DNA of 26,659 bases from a virus. Within the stretch, counting starts at the first letter, position 1. Every line of letters starts with the position of its first letter. Under the pieces are notes generated by a model, which saw only the letters and a list, made by a program, of their open reading frames with translations, ran no database searches and was not told the origin of the DNA. Made by a program: the position numbers and the translations under genes. Location: positions 1-26,659 of IMG/VR virus record IMGVR_UViG_3300006790_000097, one strand, 5' to 3'. This document shows positions 5,467 through 25,392 of the stretch, in pieces.

Positions 5467-7425
5467 GTGGCTAACAGAAAAATTACACAGATGCCTTCCA
5501 TTAACGGAACGGACATCGTTGATAATGATTTACTAACTTTAGTCAAAGTTTTTGAGGTTGACCCCAGCCTTAAAAATAAAAGACTTACCTTCTCCGGTCT
5601 TCGCGACTACCTAGATCAATATTATGGAATTGCAATCCTTAGTGGCGACCTTACTCTTTCAGGTTCGCTAACGGTTACTGGTGATCTCCGTGTCAGTGGA
5701 GACTCACATTTTGTATCCGGTCATTTTACCGACAGTGTCGTTATTGATGACAACCTCAATGTTGGAGGAGAGATTTCTGCGATTGGCACAATCTCCGGAA
5801 ACAACATCAATGGCACCAACGCCAACTTAACGAATGTAATTGTCGACAATATTAGTGGTCAGTCTGCCACGTTTACAACTGGCACATTTACCACCGGGAC
5901 TATTGATAACCTTAGTTCTACGTTTATAACCGGCAACACAATTAATGGAACAGTTGGTACCTACGCATACGTTACAGGAACTGTTCACGTTTCAGGAACT
6001 ACCGTCTATGGCGTCACCGGTGAATTTACTCAATTAAATATTTCTGGTATTGATGTTGGCGATATTGAAGTTAATGACCTCACCGTCAGCGGCGTAATCT
6101 CTGGAGAAACCATCACTGGTAATGTCATTTCAGGTACCAGTGGCGTCTTCCAATATTTATCTGGCAATACAGTTACTGGCGATGACGTTAACGTCACCAC
6201 AATCACCGGAGTAACGGGAGTCTTTACTAATTTCTCCGGACAAACAATTACCGGTGATCTGATCAATGCAACTGAAATTAATGTCCAAACTTTAAACGCT
6301 GCCAATATTGAATTCTCTGGTGACAATACCATTTCAGGTGACTTAAACGTTACTGAAACAGGCATCTTTGGCAGTGGCATTCGAGTTACGGGCTCAACTG
6401 ACTTAGAAGATCTCTTTGTCAGTGGCGATGCAACTGTAACTGGCAACACAACTACTTCTGGTTTATTTGTCACTGATGTTGCAACGTTTGCCTCAGGTAC
6501 AGAAGCAGCTCCTTCTATCACCTTCACAGGTAACGCAGACACTGGATTCTGGAAGCCAGCCTCAGGAATGATTGCTGCCAGCACCTCAGGTGTTGAAAGT
6601 TTCCGTATTAATCAATTCCGTAATATTGGTTTAAGTCTTAACAATCCACTAGACAACCTCCACGCATCTGGAAACATCCGCACCAATCAACGTTTTATTG
6701 GTAGCGGAATAACTCTTTCACATGATGCAATTATCAGTGGAGACTTAACTGTTGAAGGCCAAGTCAATGCATCTGGTGTTGATTTCGATAATCTTGAGTT
6801 AAGCGGAGACCTTACCGTCACAGGTGATCTTGGAGTCTCTGGCAACACAACCCTGAGCGGTCTGATAGTTGAGAATAACGCAACAATCAGCGGCGATCTT
6901 GGAGTCTCTGGTACAACAACTACCAGTGGTTTATTAGTTACCGATGGCGCAACTATTAGTGGCGACACCAATATTTCAGGTTTGCTTACTGTTAGCAGTC
7001 TGACAGTAACTGGCAATCTGAACATTAGTGGTGACATTATCTCAAGCGGAAACGATAATTTTGAAAATATCTTTGTTTCCGGTAATGCGACAATTACAGG
7101 AGACTTAAACGTTACTGGCACTACGACGCTCTCAGGTAACTTAAATGCTCACAATTTACACGTCACTAATGATGCTTTTATTGGTGATGACCTGACTGTT
7201 ACAGGAGACATAATTACCAGCGGTGAAGTTGGAGCCGAAGCTCTTATTTCCAGAACAAGTGGAGATATCCGTGGTGATCTTGCTGTAAGTGGTGAGTTAA
7301 CAGCAGACACTATTACTGTTCTTGAAACAGGTGTTGCTTTTGAAATGTCAGGCATTGCATCTGGCGTCAACCCAACTTACAATGGCTTCGTAATTCAAGG
7401 GCCACTAGTGATCCTTCCCCAATGA
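5467..7425 (+). CDS. Repeat-rich tail fibre protein
   Basis: The 652-aa product starts with GTG 5467. Its first 55 residues are non-repetitive and probably anchor the fibre to the virion. Almost everything after that is a degenerate repeat of short beta strands, each ending in SG or TG followed by D, N or T (patterns such as L-T-V-S-G-D and T-T-S-G-L). This is the composition of trimeric beta-helical phage fibres and adhesins. A distinct module at about 342-385 (S-G-T-x-A-A-P … T-G-F-W … S-T-S-G) interrupts the repeats and recurs in the product of 9798-10847. Gly, Ser, Thr, Asn and Val dominate; Cys is essentially absent. It lies 32 bp downstream of the membrane-anchored protein gene and 40 bp before a paralogue. 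Confidence 0.75.
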   Translation: MANRKITQMPSINGTDIVDNDLLTLVKVFEVDPSLKNKRLTFSGLRDYLDQYYGIAILSGDLTLSGSLTVTGDLRVSGDSHFVSGHFTDSVVIDDNLNVGGEISAIGTISGNNINGTNANLTNVIVDNISGQSATFTTGTFTTGTIDNLSSTFITGNTINGTVGTYAYVTGTVHVSGTTVYGVTGEFTQLNISGIDVGDIEVNDLTVSGVISGETITGNVISGTSGVFQYLSGNTVTGDDVNVTTITGVTGVFTNFSGQTITGDLINATEINVQTLNAANIEFSGDNTISGDLNVTETGIFGSGIRVTGSTDLEDLFVSGDATVTGNTTTSGLFVTDVATFASGTEAAPSITFTGNADTGFWKPASGMIAASTSGVESFRINQFRNIGLSLNNPLDNLHASGNIRTNQRFIGSGITLSHDAIISGDLTVEGQVNASGVDFDNLELSGDLTVTGDLGVSGNTTLSGLIVENNATISGDLGVSGTTTTSGLLVTDGATISGDTNISGLLTVSSLTVTGNLNISGDIISSGNDNFENIFVSGNATITGDLNVTGTTTLSGNLNAHNLHVTNDAFIGDDLTVTGDIITSGEVGAEALISRTSGDIRGDLAVSGELTADTITVLETGVAFEMSGIASGVNPTYNGFVIQGPLVILPQ

Positions 7426-7465: not shown

Positions 7466-8632
7466 ATGCCAAAGCAGTATGGAATTGTAAAAATTGACTA
7501 CATCACCTACACCACTGGTGCAAGTGGCGTTGAAGCTGATCACACAATTGATGTATCTGGCTTAGCTGGCATTGCTGCTAGCGGCATCACAGTTACTGGA
7601 ACAATCTCTGGCGTATCAGGTATTTTTGCTAGTGGCATCCAAGTTGATGGCAGTGGCGTTTTTCAACATCTATACGTCAGTGGCAATACAATCCTTAGTG
7701 GTGATGTCACGGCCTCAGGAAACCTTGGAGTTTCGGGTCAATTAACTGCCAGTGGCATCACGTCAACTGATGATATTACCGCTAGTGGTGATTTAAATGT
7801 ATCTGGATTAGGTACACTTAGCGGACTCCTAGTTACTGGTGACGCAACGATTGGTAATGACCTGACAGTTAGTGGAGATTTAAATGTCTCTGGAGACATC
7901 TCACTTTCAGACAGCATTACCGTTAGTGGAATCACAGTTACTGGTGATGCAACTGTCAGTGGTGATCTCGAAGTTTCTGGTGGAATTACCGCTAGTGGTC
8001 TTGAAGTTACAGGAAATGCCACTATTGGTGATGACTTAACTGTCAGCGGTAACCTAAGCGTTTCAGGAAATACAACACTCAGTGGTTTAACAGTCACAGG
8101 TGATGCCACGATTGGTGATGATCTAACTGTTAGTGGAAACTTAGGCGTTTCAGGAGCTACAACACTCAATGGCTTAACAGTTACTGGTAATTCCACGATG
8201 AGTGGTACCCTAGAGGTCAGCGGAACATTCACCGCTAGTGGTGCCGCTAATATCTCAGGTGAATTAACTGCCAGCAGTCTTCATGTCACCGGCTTAATCA
8301 GTGGTGATACTGATGGTGGTGTTTATGGCTCTGGTTATTGGAAAGTCCCTGCTGGTACATCAGCTGAACGACCTGGGGCTGGAAGTGAAGTTACCGGAAT
8401 GATCCGATATAACGAAACACTTACACAATTTGAAGGCTGGGACGGCACCTGGTCAATCTTAGGAGGTGGTGCAACAGGTTCTGGCGGTGACCGTGTATTC
8501 GTCTTGAATGAAACTGGCGTCACGACTAATTACACACTGACTGGCTTCAATGCTTCCAGTGCTGGCCCAATTACAATTGAAGATGGAATTGATGTTATCA
8601 TCGCCGATGACTTCAACTGGGCGATTGTTTAA
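7466..8632 (+). CDS. Repeat-rich tail fibre protein, paralogue of the preceding gene
   Basis: The 388-aa product repeats the V-S-G/V-T-G strand pattern of the upstream gene from about residue 35 to 285. Two adjacent 29-residue units encoded at 8012-8098 and 8099-8185 are nearly identical, pointing to recent duplication. The C-terminal part (about 289-340) changes to a compact module with A-G-T-S-A-E-R-P, G-M-I-R-Y-N and F-E-G-W-D-G-T-W motifs. That module is common at the ends of phage fibres and probably caps the shaft. The last 45 residues are unrelated and end FNWAIV. The gene likely encodes a shaft or side-fibre subunit acting with the 652-aa protein. Confidence 0.75.
   Translation: MPKQYGIVKIDYITYTTGASGVEADHTIDVSGLAGIAASGITVTGTISGVSGIFASGIQVDGSGVFQHLYVSGNTILSGDVTASGNLGVSGQLTASGITSTDDITASGDLNVSGLGTLSGLLVTGDATIGNDLTVSGDLNVSGDISLSDSITVSGITVTGDATVSGDLEVSGGITASGLEVTGNATIGDDLTVSGNLSVSGNTTLSGLTVTGDATIGDDLTVSGNLGVSGATTLNGLTVTGNSTMSGTLEVSGTFTASGAANISGELTASSLHVTGLISGDTDGGVYGSGYWKVPAGTSAERPGAGSEVTGMIRYNETLTQFEGWDGTWSILGGGATGSGGDRVFVLNETGVTTNYTLTGFNASSAGPITIEDGIDVIIADDFNWAIV
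8012..8185 (+). repeat. Tandem duplication of an 87-nt fibre-shaft unit
   Basis: Two head-to-tail 87-nt units (8012-8098, 8099-8185) encode 29-residue repeats that differ at only a few residues (for example NLSVSG versus NLGVSG). Most nucleotide differences are silent, so the protein sequence is being kept while codons drift. A weaker earlier copy starts near 7835. Confidence 0.7.
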
Positions 8633-8648
8633 TTTATAGGAGAATAAA

Positions 8649-9776
8649 ATGCCTCTCAATCTTGCTGGTAACGGACCTATTACAGGTGCTACTTCTTTAG
8701 CGTCGCCTACTCAAATCCACTCTGGTGCAAATAGTTTAGTCTTACAGGCTGACCCAACCGGAACACATGTTGATAGTGTTATTGGGTTAGAAGTTGATAA
8801 TGGTCGTGTTTTTACAATTAATAGATCAAATGAAGTAGGACGACTAATCACCGGTAGAACTTCATCGGTTAGTGTAGCAAACGTTAACTGCAGTTTTCAG
8901 TTTCATGGTGTAGGTGGACAACGTGGTTATACATCAGGTACAACTTATCGAAATGATAACTTAGGTCCTATTATTGCTTTAGGCAAAAGCCGTGGTACAG
9001 CTGTTGATGATTACACTGCTGTTGATTCAGGTGATTTCTTAGGAGATCTTCGTTGGATTGGATCAGACGGTACTGATTTATCAGGTTTTTCAGCTCGTAT
9101 TGCTGCGAGTGCAGCAGCAGATTTTACTGCCACCAGTAAACCCGGAATTCTTAGTTTTAGTACTACAGATGCTAATGCTGTAGCAGCAGTAGAACACATG
9201 AGGATAGATGAAGAAGGTTCTACATGGGTTGGTAACGGTACTACAGGAACAATTGGAACACTACCAAGTGCAACAAACTTAGGTGTCTTTGCTGTTGATG
9301 TCAGCAACTCTACCGTTGGCGCTTACTTAAGAACAAGTCGAGACACAGGATCTGCTAACGCTATTGCACAGTTTTGGGGAAGTGCCGGACAAGCTATTAT
9401 TCGAGGAGATGGTGATCTCGAAAATACAAATAACCGATACACTGGTATTTCTGACATTAAGCTTAAGCAAAATGTTCGTGATGCTTCTTCACAATGGGAA
9501 GATATTAAAAAATTAAAAGTTCGTCAATACGAATTAATTAAAAATCCTGATCAAAAACAAATTGGAGTTGTTGCTCAAGAGCTAGAAGAAATTTGTCCCG
9601 GACTTGTTATTGAACGTGTATCTGATGAAGAAACAGGAGAAACGCATAAATCAGTTTCTTACTCTGTTCTTTACATGAAAGCAGTCAAAGCACTTCAAGA
9701 AGCTATCGGACGAATTGAAGCTTTAGAAGCTGAAGTAGCTCAACTAACGCTTAACGTCAATCAAACTGACGTATAA
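8649..9776 (+). CDS. Tail fibre with C-terminal S74 chaperone (autoprotease) domain
   Basis: The 375-aa product has a beta-rich fibre body (1-260) and a C-terminal intramolecular chaperone of peptidase family S74 at about 265-375. The S-D-x-K-x-K motif gives S268 as likely nucleophile and K271/K273 as dyad lysine. A G-V-V-A-Q-E-L block follows at 302-308, and the tail is a Leu-heptad helix (about 345-370). In tailspikes and fibres of this family the chaperone trimerises the fibre and then cuts itself off. Start is ATG 8649 with a good AGGAG Shine-Dalgarno at 8638-8642. Body residues 55-260 resemble other marine phage fibres and presumably bind the receptor. Confidence 0.85.
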   Translation: MPLNLAGNGPITGATSLASPTQIHSGANSLVLQADPTGTHVDSVIGLEVDNGRVFTINRSNEVGRLITGRTSSVSVANVNCSFQFHGVGGQRGYTSGTTYRNDNLGPIIALGKSRGTAVDDYTAVDSGDFLGDLRWIGSDGTDLSGFSARIAASAAADFTATSKPGILSFSTTDANAVAAVEHMRIDEEGSTWVGNGTTGTIGTLPSATNLGVFAVDVSNSTVGAYLRTSRDTGSANAIAQFWGSAGQAIIRGDGDLENTNNRYTGISDIKLKQNVRDASSQWEDIKKLKVRQYELIKNPDQKQIGVVAQELEEICPGLVIERVSDEETGETHKSVSYSVLYMKAVKALQEAIGRIEALEAEVAQLTLNVNQTDV

Positions 9777-18942: not shown

Positions 18943-21540
18943 TTAAGCGTTCATCATCATTTGTTCCTGCATCTTCTCATCATTGGAGAAAGCAACTAAG
19001 CCAGGGAAATCGGCGTAACGAGTTGGATTTGATTCCCGTACAGCAATGTGGATGAATGCTGCGGTACGTCCTTTACCTCGTTGCAGTTTTAATTTCAGCT
19101 GGAACTGAATGATATCCATGACAAGCAGCTGGAAACGCTTACGACCAACTGGGTTTACACCAACGTTGTCACAGAATTCGCAGTAGGAAGGATAAAGATG
19201 TTTCTCAGACGCCATGAAGCGACGTGATGAACCTGGTGCGGTGTACTTCCTGATGCCGAGTTTGGTGTAAACACCACGATCCCAAACGATGTGGTTATCC
19301 ATCCAGTCAAGGATTGGGTTTGATGCGACCCGCTGTTCAGTCTGGAAGTACTTGTAAAACTCAACCTTTTGATTGGTTTCAATTAGATACGCACGCATCT
19401 CAGCCTGAGACATTTCAAGCACCCAGTTGACCAAGCCTGGGAGTTCAACAGCAAACTCACCACCAGCATTACCACGGCTATCAAATGTGATCAGCTCACG
19501 CTGCTCACTTGAATCACCAGTGAATGGACGATCAAATGGGATGGTGAGGCGACGACGGCCAAGACCTGAGGTGTAGTCAGTGGATTGAATCGATTCGTTT
19601 GCCGTGATCATGACAAGCCCACGGAATTGGAATGGCTCCAGTTCCTTTTCATATTTACGTTCCGGGCGAATCCAGTCACCACCAGTGATGGCTTTTAGTT
19701 TTGATACAGAACCACCCCAACGATCCTGATCCTGGAGGAGCAGAAGTTTCTTGCCGAAGTAAGCACCTGCTTCAAAGCGACCTTTCTCAATATTCTCGAA
19801 GTCACTGGCGTGGATGTTCTTCTTACCAACAAGTGCAACGCAAAGGTTGGCATAAGTGGATTTACCAGATTTACCGGGGCCAATAATTTCAACAAACTTC
19901 TGTAGATCCGAACCACCTGTAAGTACAGCACGCAGCCATGCCCTTAGGACTTGGACACGATCATCGTTACCCCATTGGGTGTGAGCAAGCCACCGGCAAA
20001 TACCAGGAGCTTTGGCACCAGCATCGTAGTTATAGGGGAGTTGTTCGTTGATATATTTCTTGCGATCAAACTCCTCTAGGGTCATCGTTTCCAGGTTGAG
20101 GATGCCATTACGAAACAAAAGGTACTGACTACCTTCATACCAATCATCAAATTCGAGCGCAGTCTTCAACTGCTCAATTACTTCATTGATGAGATTAGTG
20201 GTATAGCCGTGGAGGGGCAGGGGCGAATCTTTTCGCTTGAGCTGACTAAAGATATAAGTAACTTCTTTTTTAATTTCTAGATCACGCAGTGAAGACCAGA
20301 GTCCTTTTGAATCGTACTCATAGATAAAGAACTTGCCGTATTGCTCGGAGAATACGAGACGATCCTTGAAATAAGCGATGACGTATTCAGCTAGCTCGTC
20401 AGCGTATGGATTTCGTTTCCTTGCTTTCTTTTCTTCTTGTTTATCAGGAATTGACGGAGTATTAAAGAGGATAGTATTAGGCACGTTCGGAGTAGGGGTT
20501 GGAGTATTTTCAAGAATTGACTCAGCGATAGCTTCTTCTGCTTCTAGCTTCTCTAATTCTTTAGCAAGTTTATCGAGCAATTCATCATCGACATTCATTG
20601 CACGATGTTCTTGGCTTGGTTGCCATCCATGCTCTTTAGCGATGTGAAGCAAAGAACCAAGGGTACGACCACCTTGATCTGAGAAAGAACGCCAACGCTT
20701 ACGGCATTCACCAGCTTTATATTTCTCAGATTGTTTCGACCATTCATCCCATTCTTCCAACATGGTTTCATCCAGTTGGTGAAGGCTTTGGCCAACTGTG
20801 ATCCAGATGTCGTAATCATCAACTCCCGCTTGAGGTATAGCCCACATGGCTTCTTTCGCCAATTGCATGTCACGCTCAAGAGAAACCCGTGAGTTGACAG
20901 CGAAGTTGGGTCCTACGATCCGAGTAGTTTCAGAAACAGGTTTTCCTTGCCGTTCATTTTTATCCTTAACAGAATCAAGGACCCAGCCTGGTAGTTCAGG
21001 AAGTTTAGATGCCCACTCAAAACCAAGATTTTCTTTGGTGAAATAACCATCGGTGTCAGGGTGAACACCCATGAGAGCACCTTGATGCCTTTTCCAAAGC
21101 AGCTCAAGTTTATCTTCTGAGTCCTCTTCTGAATACCAACGGTATTTATTACGGAGGAGAGTGTCCCAATTCTCTTTCTTTACGATGTAAAGACGACGTT
21201 CTCTACCTTCACGTCCACTTTGGATTGTGAGTGTAGGGGGAAGTGCCTCATCAAATGGCTTACTTGAAAGCTGTTCGATGAGAGGGTAAACGGTGGGGCC
21301 ATCAACATCAACCCATACCAAACCATAAGGCTGATTGTAAACAGGACCAGCCAACAGGCCAACAGCTTTACAGCGCTCACTATCAATTTCTTCTGAGATC
21401 TTTTCTTTATCAAGAGGCGTGTTTTGCCAGCCTGAAATGTAGGCGTCTTTGTTGCCAGCTAATGCAACAAGAGGCCAATCCAGAGGGATGTAATCAAGAT
21501 TAATTTCGCCCGGCTTGAGTGAGAGCTTGATATCTGCCAT
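18943..21540 (-). CDS. Prim-pol / SF3 (D5-type) replicative helicase-primase
   Basis: The 865-aa product joins three modules. Residues 15-200 are an archaeo-eukaryotic primase-polymerase domain; V-D-V-D at 77-80 provides the metal-binding acidic pair, but the usual S-G-x-x-x-H-L-Y motif reads S-G-R-E-G-R-E-R-R-L-Y (108-118), with Arg for the His. Residues 225-306 resemble the PriCT_2 linker. Residues 380-680 are a D5_N plus superfamily 3 helicase: Walker A G-P-G-K-S-G-K-S-T at 554-562 (K560), Walker B-like L-L-L-L-Q-D-Q-D at 599-606, sensor I-T-A-N at 645-648 and Arg finger R-R-R at 662-664. It should synthesise primers and unwind the fork, as in P4-type replication. T4-like and T7-like cyanophages use different primase-helicases. 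The start ATG follows directly on the stop of the 60-aa gene. Confidence 0.85.
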   Translation of the reverse strand: MADIKLSLKPGEINLDYIPLDWPLVALAGNKDAYISGWQNTPLDKEKISEEIDSERCKAVGLLAGPVYNQPYGLVWVDVDGPTVYPLIEQLSSKPFDEALPPTLTIQSGREGRERRLYIVKKENWDTLLRNKYRWYSEEDSEDKLELLWKRHQGALMGVHPDTDGYFTKENLGFEWASKLPELPGWVLDSVKDKNERQGKPVSETTRIVGPNFAVNSRVSLERDMQLAKEAMWAIPQAGVDDYDIWITVGQSLHQLDETMLEEWDEWSKQSEKYKAGECRKRWRSFSDQGGRTLGSLLHIAKEHGWQPSQEHRAMNVDDELLDKLAKELEKLEAEEAIAESILENTPTPTPNVPNTILFNTPSIPDKQEEKKARKRNPYADELAEYVIAYFKDRLVFSEQYGKFFIYEYDSKGLWSSLRDLEIKKEVTYIFSQLKRKDSPLPLHGYTTNLINEVIEQLKTALEFDDWYEGSQYLLFRNGILNLETMTLEEFDRKKYINEQLPYNYDAGAKAPGICRWLAHTQWGNDDRVQVLRAWLRAVLTGGSDLQKFVEIIGPGKSGKSTYANLCVALVGKKNIHASDFENIEKGRFEAGAYFGKKLLLLQDQDRWGGSVSKLKAITGGDWIRPERKYEKELEPFQFRGLVMITANESIQSTDYTSGLGRRRLTIPFDRPFTGDSSEQRELITFDSRGNAGGEFAVELPGLVNWVLEMSQAEMRAYLIETNQKVEFYKYFQTEQRVASNPILDWMDNHIVWDRGVYTKLGIRKYTAPGSSRRFMASEKHLYPSYCEFCDNVGVNPVGRKRFQLLVMDIIQFQLKLKLQRGKGRTAAFIHIAVRESNPTRYADFPGLVAFSNDEKMQEQMMMNA

Positions 21541-21757: not shown

Positions 21758-21976
21758 TTAATCCGACTGTCTATACGCTTCCATTAACTCATCTTCAGTC
21801 TCATAAGACTTATGATGTTTTGCCGTTAGACGCATTGCTTTGCCTTCTTCCCTATAGATGGGCTCAAAATCTTCGTTGAGATCCCAGTAGTAATCTCTGG
21901 TGTTGTCCCATTCGATACGCTTGAGACGCGCCTTGGTTTTGGATTCAAACCAGAGAGTTTTAAGCCACTTGATCAC
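21758..21976 (-). CDS. Small hypothetical acidic/helical protein, start uncertain
   Basis: The frame ends at 21758. I choose GTG 21976 (72 aa, 17-bp overlap with the endonuclease VII gene). ATG 22036 would give 92 aa but places the first 20 residues wholly inside the nuclease gene. Tyr, Trp, Glu and Lys rich; no recognised domain. The start is only weakly supported by a Shine-Dalgarno. Confidence 0.45.
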   Translation of the reverse strand: MIKWLKTLWFESKTKARLKRIEWDNTRDYYWDLNEDFEPIYREEGKAMRLTAKHHKSYETEDELMEAYRQSD

Positions 21977-22412
21977 AGCCTGAGCGATGTCGCTCAAGAT
22001 ATTTTTTGGCAGCGTCGAAGAGAAGTGGATCCTCATTTAATAGTCCTATCGCAGAATTGCATTTGCCACAAAGTAATTGGCGCACTTTCCCACTGCTGTG
22101 GCAGTGGTCAACGTGAAGCCTTGAGTCAGTTACTTCTATTCCTTTGCAAATAGCGCAAAGATTGTTTTGCTCTCTCAACATTCTTTCATAATCTTTAAAA
22201 GAAATGCCGTATCGATATTTTAAATTGGCACGCCATTGAAGTTCTTTTGTTCGTTCGGGGTTATTTTTGAACCATTTTTTAGTATTAGCATGACGACAAC
22301 TCTTGCACCATGAAGTGTGACCTTCTGGCCTTTGGGCATCCTTGTGAAATTGATCCCAGCTCTTGAAAGTTTTACACTTAGAACAGGCTCTAGGGGATAA
22401 GGTCTGGGTCAT
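21960..22412 (-). CDS. Recombination endonuclease VII homologue with extra zinc finger
   Basis: The 150-aa product (from ATG 22412, preceded by GGAG three bases upstream) contains the endonuclease VII core in residues 65-142. Zinc cysteines pair as C86-x2-C89 and C115-x2-C118; D102-H103 and N119 match T4 D40-H41 and N62, the catalytic metal site. N-terminal C10-x2-C13 and C36-x2-C39 add a second zinc-binding module absent from T4 gp49. T4 endonuclease VII resolves branched DNA such as Holliday junctions before packaging. An in-frame TTG at 22430 would add six residues. It overlaps the upstream exonuclease gene by 23 bp and continues into the replication operon. A second homologue is at 23902-24228. 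Confidence 0.88.
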   Translation of the reverse strand: MTQTLSPRACSKCKTFKSWDQFHKDAQRPEGHTSWCKSCRHANTKKWFKNNPERTKELQWRANLKYRYGISFKDYERMLREQNNLCAICKGIEVTDSRLHVDHCHSSGKVRQLLCGKCNSAIGLLNEDPLLFDAAKKYLERHRSGCDQVA

Positions 22413-23205
22413 ATTCTCCGAGTTCTTCAACTTGTTTATAATATGCGGCCACGATCTTCAGCCAGTCTTCGTGGAGCATGTCTAGGAAGCGTCTACTGAT
22501 TTTAAAAATTTGAGTGCGAACAGGAGTTGACACGAGGATGGCAGCCTGTTGCACCTTCATGCCTAGGGTTTGTTGAATCCCAAGATCGTAAGCAGCAAGT
22601 TGCTTGCAGGTTTTTTTGAACTTGAGGTGTCCGCCCAAAAGATCTCTCCACTCTTGGGATCCCTTTTCCAAATGGGACGGCCAGCGTCTGGCATACGGTT
22701 TGACGGAAGTCTTGAGGTCCGCCAACGTGAGTTTCCCATTGGCGACGGCGATAATATCGGGCGCCCCGGCCCAAGCTCTTCCTTCTGAATCACTGCCCCA
22801 TACACGAGCAACATCGTCGCTGCCAAGAGTGAATTTAAATTTGTCCAAAACAGGAGATTCTGCCCATAGTACTTCTTCGAATTGGTCGAGCACCTGGGGC
22901 ATTCCCTGCCAGAACTCTGCGTATTCTGCTGGGATCTTAGGCTCTTTATCTCCTTTGAGATAACACTCCATGCCATAGTGAATGGCGGTACCACGTTCAG
23001 CTGCCTTTTCTTTAACACCTGGGTTTGCCTTAGACCACATTTCTAGTTTTTTCTTGTTCGCTTCTGAAGCAGTCTGCGACAAGATAGTAGTGACTGACGG
23101 CGCTGGGCCAGTTTCTAGCGGAGTTGTGTAGTGACGTTTACCGTTAAGCGTAATTCGAGCTGCAGTCTTATTGATTTCCTGCATCAACTCAGGATTATCT
23201 GGCAT
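22390..23205 (-). CDS. PD-(D/E)XK exonuclease (Cas4/AddB-like fold)
   Basis: The 271-aa product has the motif order of PD-(D/E)XK phage exonucleases: R-G-T-A-I-H at 71-76 (motif I His), E116, G-A-P-D with D150, L-A-D-L-K-T with D163 and K165, and Q202-L-x-x-Y (motif QxxxY). This matches Cas4/RecB-type nucleases and the exonucleases of phages. It probably degrades 5' or 3' ends for recombination or host DNA breakdown. It heads the minus-strand replication operon 23205-17615. ATG 23205 begins the frame and there is no nearby better start. No CRISPR array is in the window, so a Cas4 role is not suggested. Confidence 0.85.
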   Translation of the reverse strand: MPDNPELMQEINKTAARITLNGKRHYTTPLETGPAPSVTTILSQTASEANKKKLEMWSKANPGVKEKAAERGTAIHYGMECYLKGDKEPKIPAEYAEFWQGMPQVLDQFEEVLWAESPVLDKFKFTLGSDDVARVWGSDSEGRAWAGAPDIIAVANGKLTLADLKTSVKPYARRWPSHLEKGSQEWRDLLGGHLKFKKTCKQLAAYDLGIQQTLGMKVQQAAILVSTPVRTQIFKISRRFLDMLHEDWLKIVAAYYKQVEELGEYDPDLIP

Positions 23206-23901: not shown

Positions 23902-24228
23902 GTGGCTTCAAGAGAGGCAAACTTAAAGCATCGATATGGCATTACGTTAGTTGACTACAACGAAATGCTTTTAGAACAGAACTGTCGATGCAAAATTTGT
24001 GACGTAGAAAGCAGTGACCTGGTGGTAGACCACTGCCACAAATCAGGTGATGTCCGTGGTTTGTTATGTAATAACTGCAATCGAGGACTTGGAATGTTTA
24101 AGGATAGTCCTGAGAGAATGGAGAGAGCAGCTCAATATATTATTGAAACCAAAAACGAAGAGGCTCTATCCTTATCGTCCCCCACTATTTCTGGAGGACA
24201 TGCAGAAAGTAAATCAGCAACCGCGTAA
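23902..24228 (+). CDS. Second endonuclease VII-like nuclease
   Basis: The 108-aa product starts at GTG 23902 with AAAGG at 23886-23890. Its core at residues 8-80 matches endonuclease VII: C30-x2-C33, D43-H44, C56-x2-C59 and N60, the same layout as the 150-aa homologue on the minus strand. It lacks that protein's N-terminal zinc module. Residues 85-108 are Ser/Ala-rich and differ completely. All metal-site residues are present, so it may be active. Its tail overlaps the convergent Dps-like gene by 15 bp. It is an independent copy rather than a direct duplicate, as overall identity is modest. Confidence 0.82.
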   Translation: MASREANLKHRYGITLVDYNEMLLEQNCRCKICDVESSDLVVDHCHKSGDVRGLLCNNCNRGLGMFKDSPERMERAAQYIIETKNEEALSLSSPTISGGHAESKSATA

Positions 24229-24753
24229 CATCGCTTTGATTTGCCAAGCAGATTTAAAAGATTCACCAACTAATTCAGCACAGTAGTTTTCAACATCAGG
24301 TGCTTTGATCTTTTTAGCCACTTCACCTACACGCTTGGCATCCATGCCATAGGTTTCTAGGTTTTTGTAATAAGTGATGAGCATCGCAGGACCTTCGTAG
24401 GCTTTGACATGCTCAAGTTTTTTATTTGCCTTCAGCAGTCCCTGTTCACACATTGGAAGAAGGAAATCGAGAGAACGAACGAGTTCACCCACACTATCAA
24501 GTTCTTCTTGGTGCTTTTGATATTGTTTCTTGGTGAACTTGTGTACCGCAAGGAACTCTGGACCTTCGAAGTTCAGATGTATCAAGTGCGATTGCAACAT
24601 CAAGTGAGCAGCTTGGCTCGTCAAGTTGATCAATTCATTAGCAAGTCGAGCTACGGGTTCACGCTTACTCTGGGGTTGGGGCTCATTGCTTACGGGTTCT
24701 GGCTCCCGTTGCGCAGTGGGTTCCGTTGGCTGAGGAGGAGTCCCTGCGAACAT
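24214..24753 (-). CDS. Dps-like ferritin (DNA-protection mini-ferritin)
   Basis: The 179-aa product has a Pro/Glu/Gln-rich, likely disordered tail (1-35) and a four-helix bundle (about 36-179). The ferroxidase residues of E. coli Dps (H51, H63, D78, E82) fit with identical spacing: H59, H71, D86 and E90, in a block reading H-L-N-F-E-G-P-E-F before the second His. Dps proteins form dodecamers that oxidise and store iron and shield DNA from peroxide. The C-terminal third (A-P-D-V-E-N-Y-C-A-E) is helical. It lies alone on the minus strand between the endonuclease VII paralogue and a coiled-coil gene, with its start at ATG 24753. Function in the infection is inferred only. Confidence 0.65.
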   Translation of the reverse strand: MFAGTPPQPTEPTAQREPEPVSNEPQPQSKREPVARLANELINLTSQAAHLMLQSHLIHLNFEGPEFLAVHKFTKKQYQKHQEELDSVGELVRSLDFLLPMCEQGLLKANKKLEHVKAYEGPAMLITYYKNLETYGMDAKRVGEVAKKIKAPDVENYCAELVGESFKSAWQIKAMLRGC

Positions 24754-24781
24754 GATCTGTACTTATATCTAATGTTGTCTA

Positions 24782-24794
24782 TTCTAAAATAGAA
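24782..24794. promoter_or_regulatory. Short palindrome in the divergent promoter region
   Basis: TTCTA-AAA-TAGAA is a 5-bp inverted repeat in the 60-bp gap between the divergent starts at 24753 and 24814. It is a possible operator, unproven. TATAAAAT at 24806-24813 ends at the base before the start of the plus-strand gene and is too close to be its promoter. Confidence 0.3.
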
Positions 24795-24813: not shown

Positions 24814-25392
24814 ATGAACATCTTCGAGTATTTAGACGCAGAATCACCTGAGATCAATCATGCATTAGCTCATGGTTTTAGGAAAGGAGATAGCAGTGCA
24901 GTAGGTCGTGCTTTATTAGAAGAAATTAGAGCAAGAAAAACCCTGGTTAAACAGTTAGCTACTCAGGTAAGAGCTGTTGAAGCAGTTGATAGGCAAACAA
25001 TTGACACAAGTGGATTGCAAGCCAACATTGATCAACAAGGGGAAACTCTTAATCAACAAAGAGAAACTCTTAGTCAGCAAGGAGAAACTCTTAGTCAGCA
25101 AGGAGAAACTCTTAGTCAGCAAGGAGAAACTCTTAGTCAGCAAGGAGAAACTCTTAGTCAGCAAATAGAAACTCTTAGTCAGCAAGGGGAAACTCTTAGT
25201 CAGCAACAAGAAAGCATTAATGAACAGCTGGAATTAATTAACCTTCAACAAGAATTAATTGATCAACAACAAGAAGAAAGCTCTAATCAACTATTAAAGA
25301 TTGGAGAACTGGAACAGGATGTAGCAGATGCAAACAGTAGAATTGATGTATTAATTTCTGGATTAACAAGTTTATTACAGCGGTTAGAATAA
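24814..25392 (+). CDS. Coiled-coil protein with 21-bp tandem repeats
   Basis: The 192-aa product starts at ATG 24814. Residues 1-60 form an N-terminal domain with helices; 76-131 are eight 7-residue repeats of x-E-T-L-x-Q-Q, a near-perfect heptad; 132-155 continue as a degenerate Gln/Glu-rich coil, and 160-192 are a helix with Leu/Val. This would be a parallel coiled-coil stalk, perhaps trimeric. It lies directly before another fibre gene. Likely a tail-fibre or fibre-accessory protein; no domain identifies it. Confidence 0.65.
   Translation: MNIFEYLDAESPEINHALAHGFRKGDSSAVGRALLEEIRARKTLVKQLATQVRAVEAVDRQTIDTSGLQANIDQQGETLNQQRETLSQQGETLSQQGETLSQQGETLSQQGETLSQQIETLSQQGETLSQQQESINEQLELINLQQELIDQQQEESSNQLLKIGELEQDVADANSRIDVLISGLTSLLQRLE
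25039..25206 (+). repeat. Eight 21-bp tandem repeats inside the coiled-coil gene
   Basis: The unit reads GGAGAAACTCTTAGTCAGCA plus A, eight in-frame copies with a few substitutions (first two copies have AATCAA or AGAGAA; the seventh begins ATAGAA). Copies 3-6 are identical or nearly so at the DNA level. Since 21 is a multiple of three, gain or loss of a unit would change stalk length without a frameshift. Confidence 0.9.

Follow-up and report, generated by a model that had tools for sequence, protein, structure and literature searches.

Canonical Dps proteins, such as those of E. coli (1dps), B. subtilis (MrgA, 2chp) and P. aeruginosa (PA0962, 8ff9), have a four-helix fold with H-H-D-E ligands, together with an acidic residue at position 67 (E. 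coli numbering) and a Trp. The canonical ferroxidase centre comprises five residues, according to the accessible part of one source (PMC6675082), and the second iron site of E. coli Dps is made of Lys48, Asp67 and the neighbour's Asp78 in the passages available from two others (PMC6150300, PMC9140674). In phages, Dps has been reported in Lactobacillus phages (PMC6669764, in excerpt) and in gut Gratiaviridae along with 36 other phage genomes (PMC8008677, in excerpt). With E. coli Dps as the query, 125 phage records are retrieved, of which 95 are Streptomyces phages. The Dps of cyanophage S-SRM01 is unrelated to the one described here (16% identity), having G at position 67 and the Trp kept. The phage of direct relevance is S-EIV1, whose host, Synechococcus sp. 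PCCC-A2c, is from a lake in the high Arctic, and whose protein AHV82153 (KJ410740) is annotated as a 'DNA-binding ferritin-like protein'. Our search of the accessible literature on cyanophage Dps and ferritins found no paper on this type of Dps, which the original S-EIV1 description may treat. Since annotated Dps already exist in S-EIV1 and other phages, the novelty of a phage Dps is smaller than the initial annotation of the locus implied. The new points are at the level of the clade, namely a near-universal presence, a virus-only branch and an altered site. Phage Dps are usually mentioned in passing as possible stress genes; here, it comes near to marking a whole lineage.

The window, meaning the whole 26,659-nucleotide stretch analysed here (IMG/VR record IMGVR_UViG_3300006790_000097), carries a dps ORF at 24214..24753 on the minus strand, with an ATG start and a product of 179 aa. 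The product matches PF00210 (Pfam Ferritin; E 1.8e-10, score 41.4 bits, cut-off 24.5) and PHROG 3636, labelled 'DNA binding protein' (E 6e-19). It also matches Dps entries of the PDB, the best solved relative being Campylobacter 3kwo (E 1.7e-11). An AlphaFold2 single-chain model, built from a 57-sequence alignment (the window with 55 viral and one cellular relative), reached a mean pLDDT of 86.9 and a pTM of 0.80 with four long helices, all encoded on the minus strand: A (residues 32-61, 24571..24660), B (67-94, 24472..24555), C (121-148, 24310..24393), which holds the clade motif YYKNLE, and D (152-177, 24223..24300), which holds W170. A three-residue helix (107-109) lies in the BC loop. Foldseek returned Dps entries (top 8ff9, E 2.1e-6), and the 50 matches listed are, by title or name, Dps family members. 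With VIA-align, the model superposed on dodecameric MrgA with a Z of 21.3 (1.6 A, 148 of 148 residues) and on T. elongatus Dps with a Z of 21.1, values exceeding the chance level for helical bundles under the program's own guidance. The His-type proteins NpDps4 and T. elongatus DpsA, which have a cyanobacterial setting, are among the better structural matches. The product scored 21.2 bits with NCBIfam NF052461, the cyanobacterial DpsA equivalog, below its 300-bit threshold. The gene is under purifying selection (dN 0.085 and dS 0.606 against the relative L002). A helical phage protein merely resembling Dps could be imagined from the low identity to cellular Dps (14.6-25.5%, seven compared), but the family scores (Pfam, PHROG, 3kwo), a structural Z of 21 and the conserved site refute such a chance resemblance, to which we give practically no credence. 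Hence both the ORF and its initial annotation as a Dps-like mini-ferritin hold, on matches that are independent of the metal-binding motif and on the predicted fold, and the product is a genuine Dps-type mini-ferritin.

To place the gene, relatives were collected by an IMG/VR alignment scan, in which 175 were found and 80 kept. To be retrieved, a sequence had to carry at least one of two patterns, covering residues 49-56 and 127-133. The conservation of H56, Y128, Y129 and N131, which these patterns include, is therefore partly a result of selection; H59, H71, K75, H81, D86 and E90 fall outside both. After removal of the window's own entry (L005), three duplicates (L006, L007, L010) and a cellular sequence (L086), counts rest on 82 sequences representing 69 distinct cores. 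The comparison set of 21 Dps (18 cellular and three from Streptomyces phages) was hand-picked from match lists and is non-random. Among 50,697 phage records, S-EIV1 was the only match to the dps product (44.6% identity over 96%). It was also the best match of the primase encoded in the window at 18943..21540 (minus strand; 50.5% identity over 98%), and the sole record of 638 in which one place covered at least 80% of the primase query. Judged by this S-EIV1-type primase, a marker of the lineage, the window belongs to the S-EIV1-like phages. The same primase was present in 29 of 32 chosen Dps-bearing contigs (G009, G010 and G031, which lack it, may be fragments). Conversely, Dps was found in 22 of 25 primase-selected contigs of at least 56 kb, the exceptions being G034, G037 and G041. 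Dps is thus near-universal in S-EIV1-like contigs, and these counts bring it close to a hallmark of this widespread lineage.

The ferroxidase site was initially annotated as intact, with H59, H71, D86 and E90 spaced as in E. coli Dps. These residues are indeed present with spacings of 12, 15 and 4, and correspond to E. coli His51, His63, Asp78 and Glu82 (minus-strand codons 24577..24579, 24541..24543, 24496..24498 and 24484..24486). Across the window's six reading frames, the four-residue pattern has a single stop-free occurrence, and it arose in 6 of 20,000 shuffles of the dps protein. H59, which lies in helix A, and H71, D86 and E90, which lie in helix B, are invariant in 69/69 cores, and are likewise kept in 20 Dps loci retrieved by way of the primase, including 13 of 13 new cores; the H-H-D-E ligands also occur in all 21 comparison Dps. 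In His-type centres, a His takes the position of Asp78 (accessible part of PMC6675082), whereas D86 is Asp in every phage core. What does not stand is the intactness of the full site, as the fifth, acidic residue is lost. Its place (E. coli Asp67, H63+4) is taken in helix B of the window protein by K75 (24529..24531, minus strand), and among the 69 cores by K (47), G (21) or R (1), while 16 of the 21 comparison Dps have an acid there and five do not. In helix A, the Trp that follows the first ligand His in all comparison Dps is found in 0/69 cores, where Leu, Phe or Ala stands instead; the window has L60, with HLN replacing HWN. S-EIV1 Dps falls in the same clade and has the same four ligands and HLN, with G, not an acid, at position 75. 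Two further residues set the clade apart, H81 in helix B (69/69 cores against 0/21 in the comparison set) and D96 (69/69 against 1/21). The place of E. coli Lys48 is occupied in helix A by H56, and His there is common in cellular Dps. An invariant E63 was also considered as a substitute carboxylate new to the clade, and dropped, as Glu occurs there in 4/21 comparison Dps. Overall, the alignment indicates that the clade's ferroxidase site is non-canonical, with its fifth acidic residue replaced and the HWN Trp lost.

Whether such a centre still works can be argued in two directions. Catalysis might be weakened, with the protein serving mainly in iron or DNA binding or as a scaffold, and the four residues persisting for metal binding or stability. 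The replacement of the acid by K, G or R in every core and the loss of the conserved Trp favour this reading, as does the membership of E. coli Asp67 in the second iron site mentioned above, and site B may bind iron weakly with that acid missing. However, NpDps4 resembles the window protein in having no acid at position 67 (Asn), and nevertheless oxidises Fe(II) with O2 in the available part of PMC6675082, so absence of the acid need not mean inactivity. Moreover, the acid is also missing from the five comparison Dps counted above, and the four ligands never vary. We therefore regard weakened catalysis as improbable. The invariance of the other four residues suggests instead that K or G at position 75 and the loss of the Trp may have changed the kinetics or the oxidant preference, rather than abolished the function.

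The N-terminal tail (residues 1-31; 24661..24753, minus strand) is flexible and Pro/Gln-rich, as judged from a pLDDT of 51-61 over residues 1-30 and from its composition. Residues 1-36 contain four K/R and five D/E, for a net charge of -1, so its initial description as not Lys-rich is right for the window copy; across the relatives, the net charge has a median of +1 and ranges from -6 to +8. E. coli Dps has a Lys-bearing tail, and the basic tail of that DNA-binding type is absent from the window copy. DNA packing by this copy appears unlikely from its sequence.

For the phylogeny, 25 of the 69 phage cores were combined with the comparison Dps. All 25 phage sequences fell on one side of a single branch (support 100/100, stem 5.52), and the three Streptomyces phage Dps formed a separate branch. 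The tree neighbours nearest to the phage clade were two Roseobacteraceae plasmid Dps, a weakly supported placement (42/91) that came with long-branch warnings. A cyanobacterial donor is not supported by this tree, whose sample included a single cyanobacterial sequence, from a Synechococcus PCC 7502 plasmid. A single scan of cellular contigs with two short patterns retrieved one weak relative (36% over 55 residues). These data support the view that the Dps of S-EIV1-like phages form one virus-only branch, a status that is supported rather than proven because the cellular scan relies on two short patterns. The dps gene was probably inherited within the S-EIV1-like (cyano)phage lineage.

The initial annotation had also proposed a photosynthetic host, which kinship supports: S-EIV1 infects Synechococcus and one relative contig carries psbA. 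Through these kin, the host of the window is probably cyanobacterial. A marine viral genome survey grouped S-EIV1 with six environmental genomes bearing hli and ptoX (PMC5332604, as far as its accessible text goes). Photosynthesis genes are rare among the relatives, with psbA in one of the 33 records examined and PF00504 in five, of which one is over the cut-off (S-EIV1, with internal stops). The psbA-type gene lies in the S-EIV1-like contig L080 (G030:C1:64584-65456; PF00124, E 1.3e-90). In such a host, the main role of the protein is probably to buffer iron and peroxide during infection, by analogy with characterized Dps. We infer its shell, activity, timing and benefit as follows. Twelve subunits would assemble into a hollow shell. 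Its Fe(II)-binding sites would lie at the two-fold interfaces, each made up of H59 and H71 from one subunit and D86 and E90 from the adjacent one. The bound iron would be oxidised by peroxide or oxygen and the ferric iron kept inside the shell, leaving less free iron and peroxide in the infected photosynthetic cell. Phage DNA and host machinery would suffer less Fenton damage, and the cell would stay productive. The near-universal presence of the gene, with its unvarying ligands and altered fifth position, raises a biochemical question, whether iron is still oxidised, and with which oxidant, when Lys or Gly stands in for Asp67, and a genetic one, whether a cyanophage needs its own mini-ferritin under light stress. 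Both are answerable, since S-EIV1 has been isolated and its host is named.

The surroundings of dps in other loci provide the best rival to buffering, a role in the virion or in late assembly, in which Dps would be produced along with the structural proteins and packed in or on the particle, and would protect or condense the phage genome instead of buffering iron in the cytoplasm. Of the 73 relatives whose upstream sequence reaches 1.5 kb or more, 43 have dps directly behind a gene of PHROG 1645, labelled 'virion structural protein, head and packaging', at a distance of -16 to 52 nt, and it is this operon context, shared by about three fifths of the relatives, that gives the reading its weight. 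The PHROG 1645 neighbour is 57-64% identical to Synechococcus myovirus proteins among the matches listed, a resemblance that also indicates cyanobacterial hosts. Also in favour of a virion role, the 3' end of S-EIV1 dps overlaps a downstream 489-aa gene of unknown function, and the structure search lists viral 'prohead protease' proteins that align to the Dps model. Against it, 30 of the 73 relatives, including the window, S-EIV1 and the closest relatives, lack the structural neighbour, shared transcription is no proof of packaging, and the tail of the window copy is not basic. We thus consider a virion or late-assembly role unlikely. A more elaborate version seems to us slightly more doubtful still, namely that a long-separated, virus-only Dps with a rebuilt centre (Lys/Gly at position 67, no Trp, and H81 and D96 as invariant additions), often co-made with a head protein, would be carried in the virion and guard the packaged genome against iron and peroxide. 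The 'prohead protease' proteins are BFVD A0A6J7WPK9, A0A6J7WIS1 and A0A6J7XDU5, whose alignments with the Dps model span 140-159 columns, a hint of fusions between Dps domains and head-maturation proteins. A literature search on Dps combined with 'prohead protease' returned nothing relevant, the 'DPs' of phage 7-7-1 being decoration proteins.

Within the window, in contrast to the S-EIV1 arrangement, dps lies tail to tail with the endonuclease VII-type gene at 23902-24228 (plus strand), with a 15-base overlap. A second gene of this type lies at 21960-22430 (minus strand), the two flanking the dps region. Upstream of dps, a divergent coiled-coil gene begins at 24814. Its ORF (24814-25392) contains at 25032-25213 a 21-base tandem repeat of 8.7 copies, which translates into a repeated QQGETLS heptad typical of coiled coils. 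An antisense ORF (24409-24792, plus strand) spans most of dps and is also open in the closest relatives, and 4 of 2,000 synonymous shuffles gave a frame as long; it was rejected as a gene, as none of the 69 members reached p ≤ 0.05 (median p 0.77). In a promoter scan, sites were no commoner than in shuffles, and a tRNA search found none. In the other loci, a 224-aa neighbour present in 48 of 82 (L033 7005-7676, minus strand) matches PHROG 3704 (ferredoxin; 8.5e-95) and has no Pfam match. The S-EIV1 protein AHV82152 (L001 12531-13997), annotated as a sulfate adenylyltransferase, gave no Pfam or PHROG match at E 0.1, making that label doubtful. Elsewhere in the window, the genes at 5467-7425 and 7466-8632 encode long repeat-rich proteins with SGDLTVSG-type units, the former with weak bactofilin and beta-solenoid matches, and the gene at 8649-9776 encodes an endosialidase chaperone domain.
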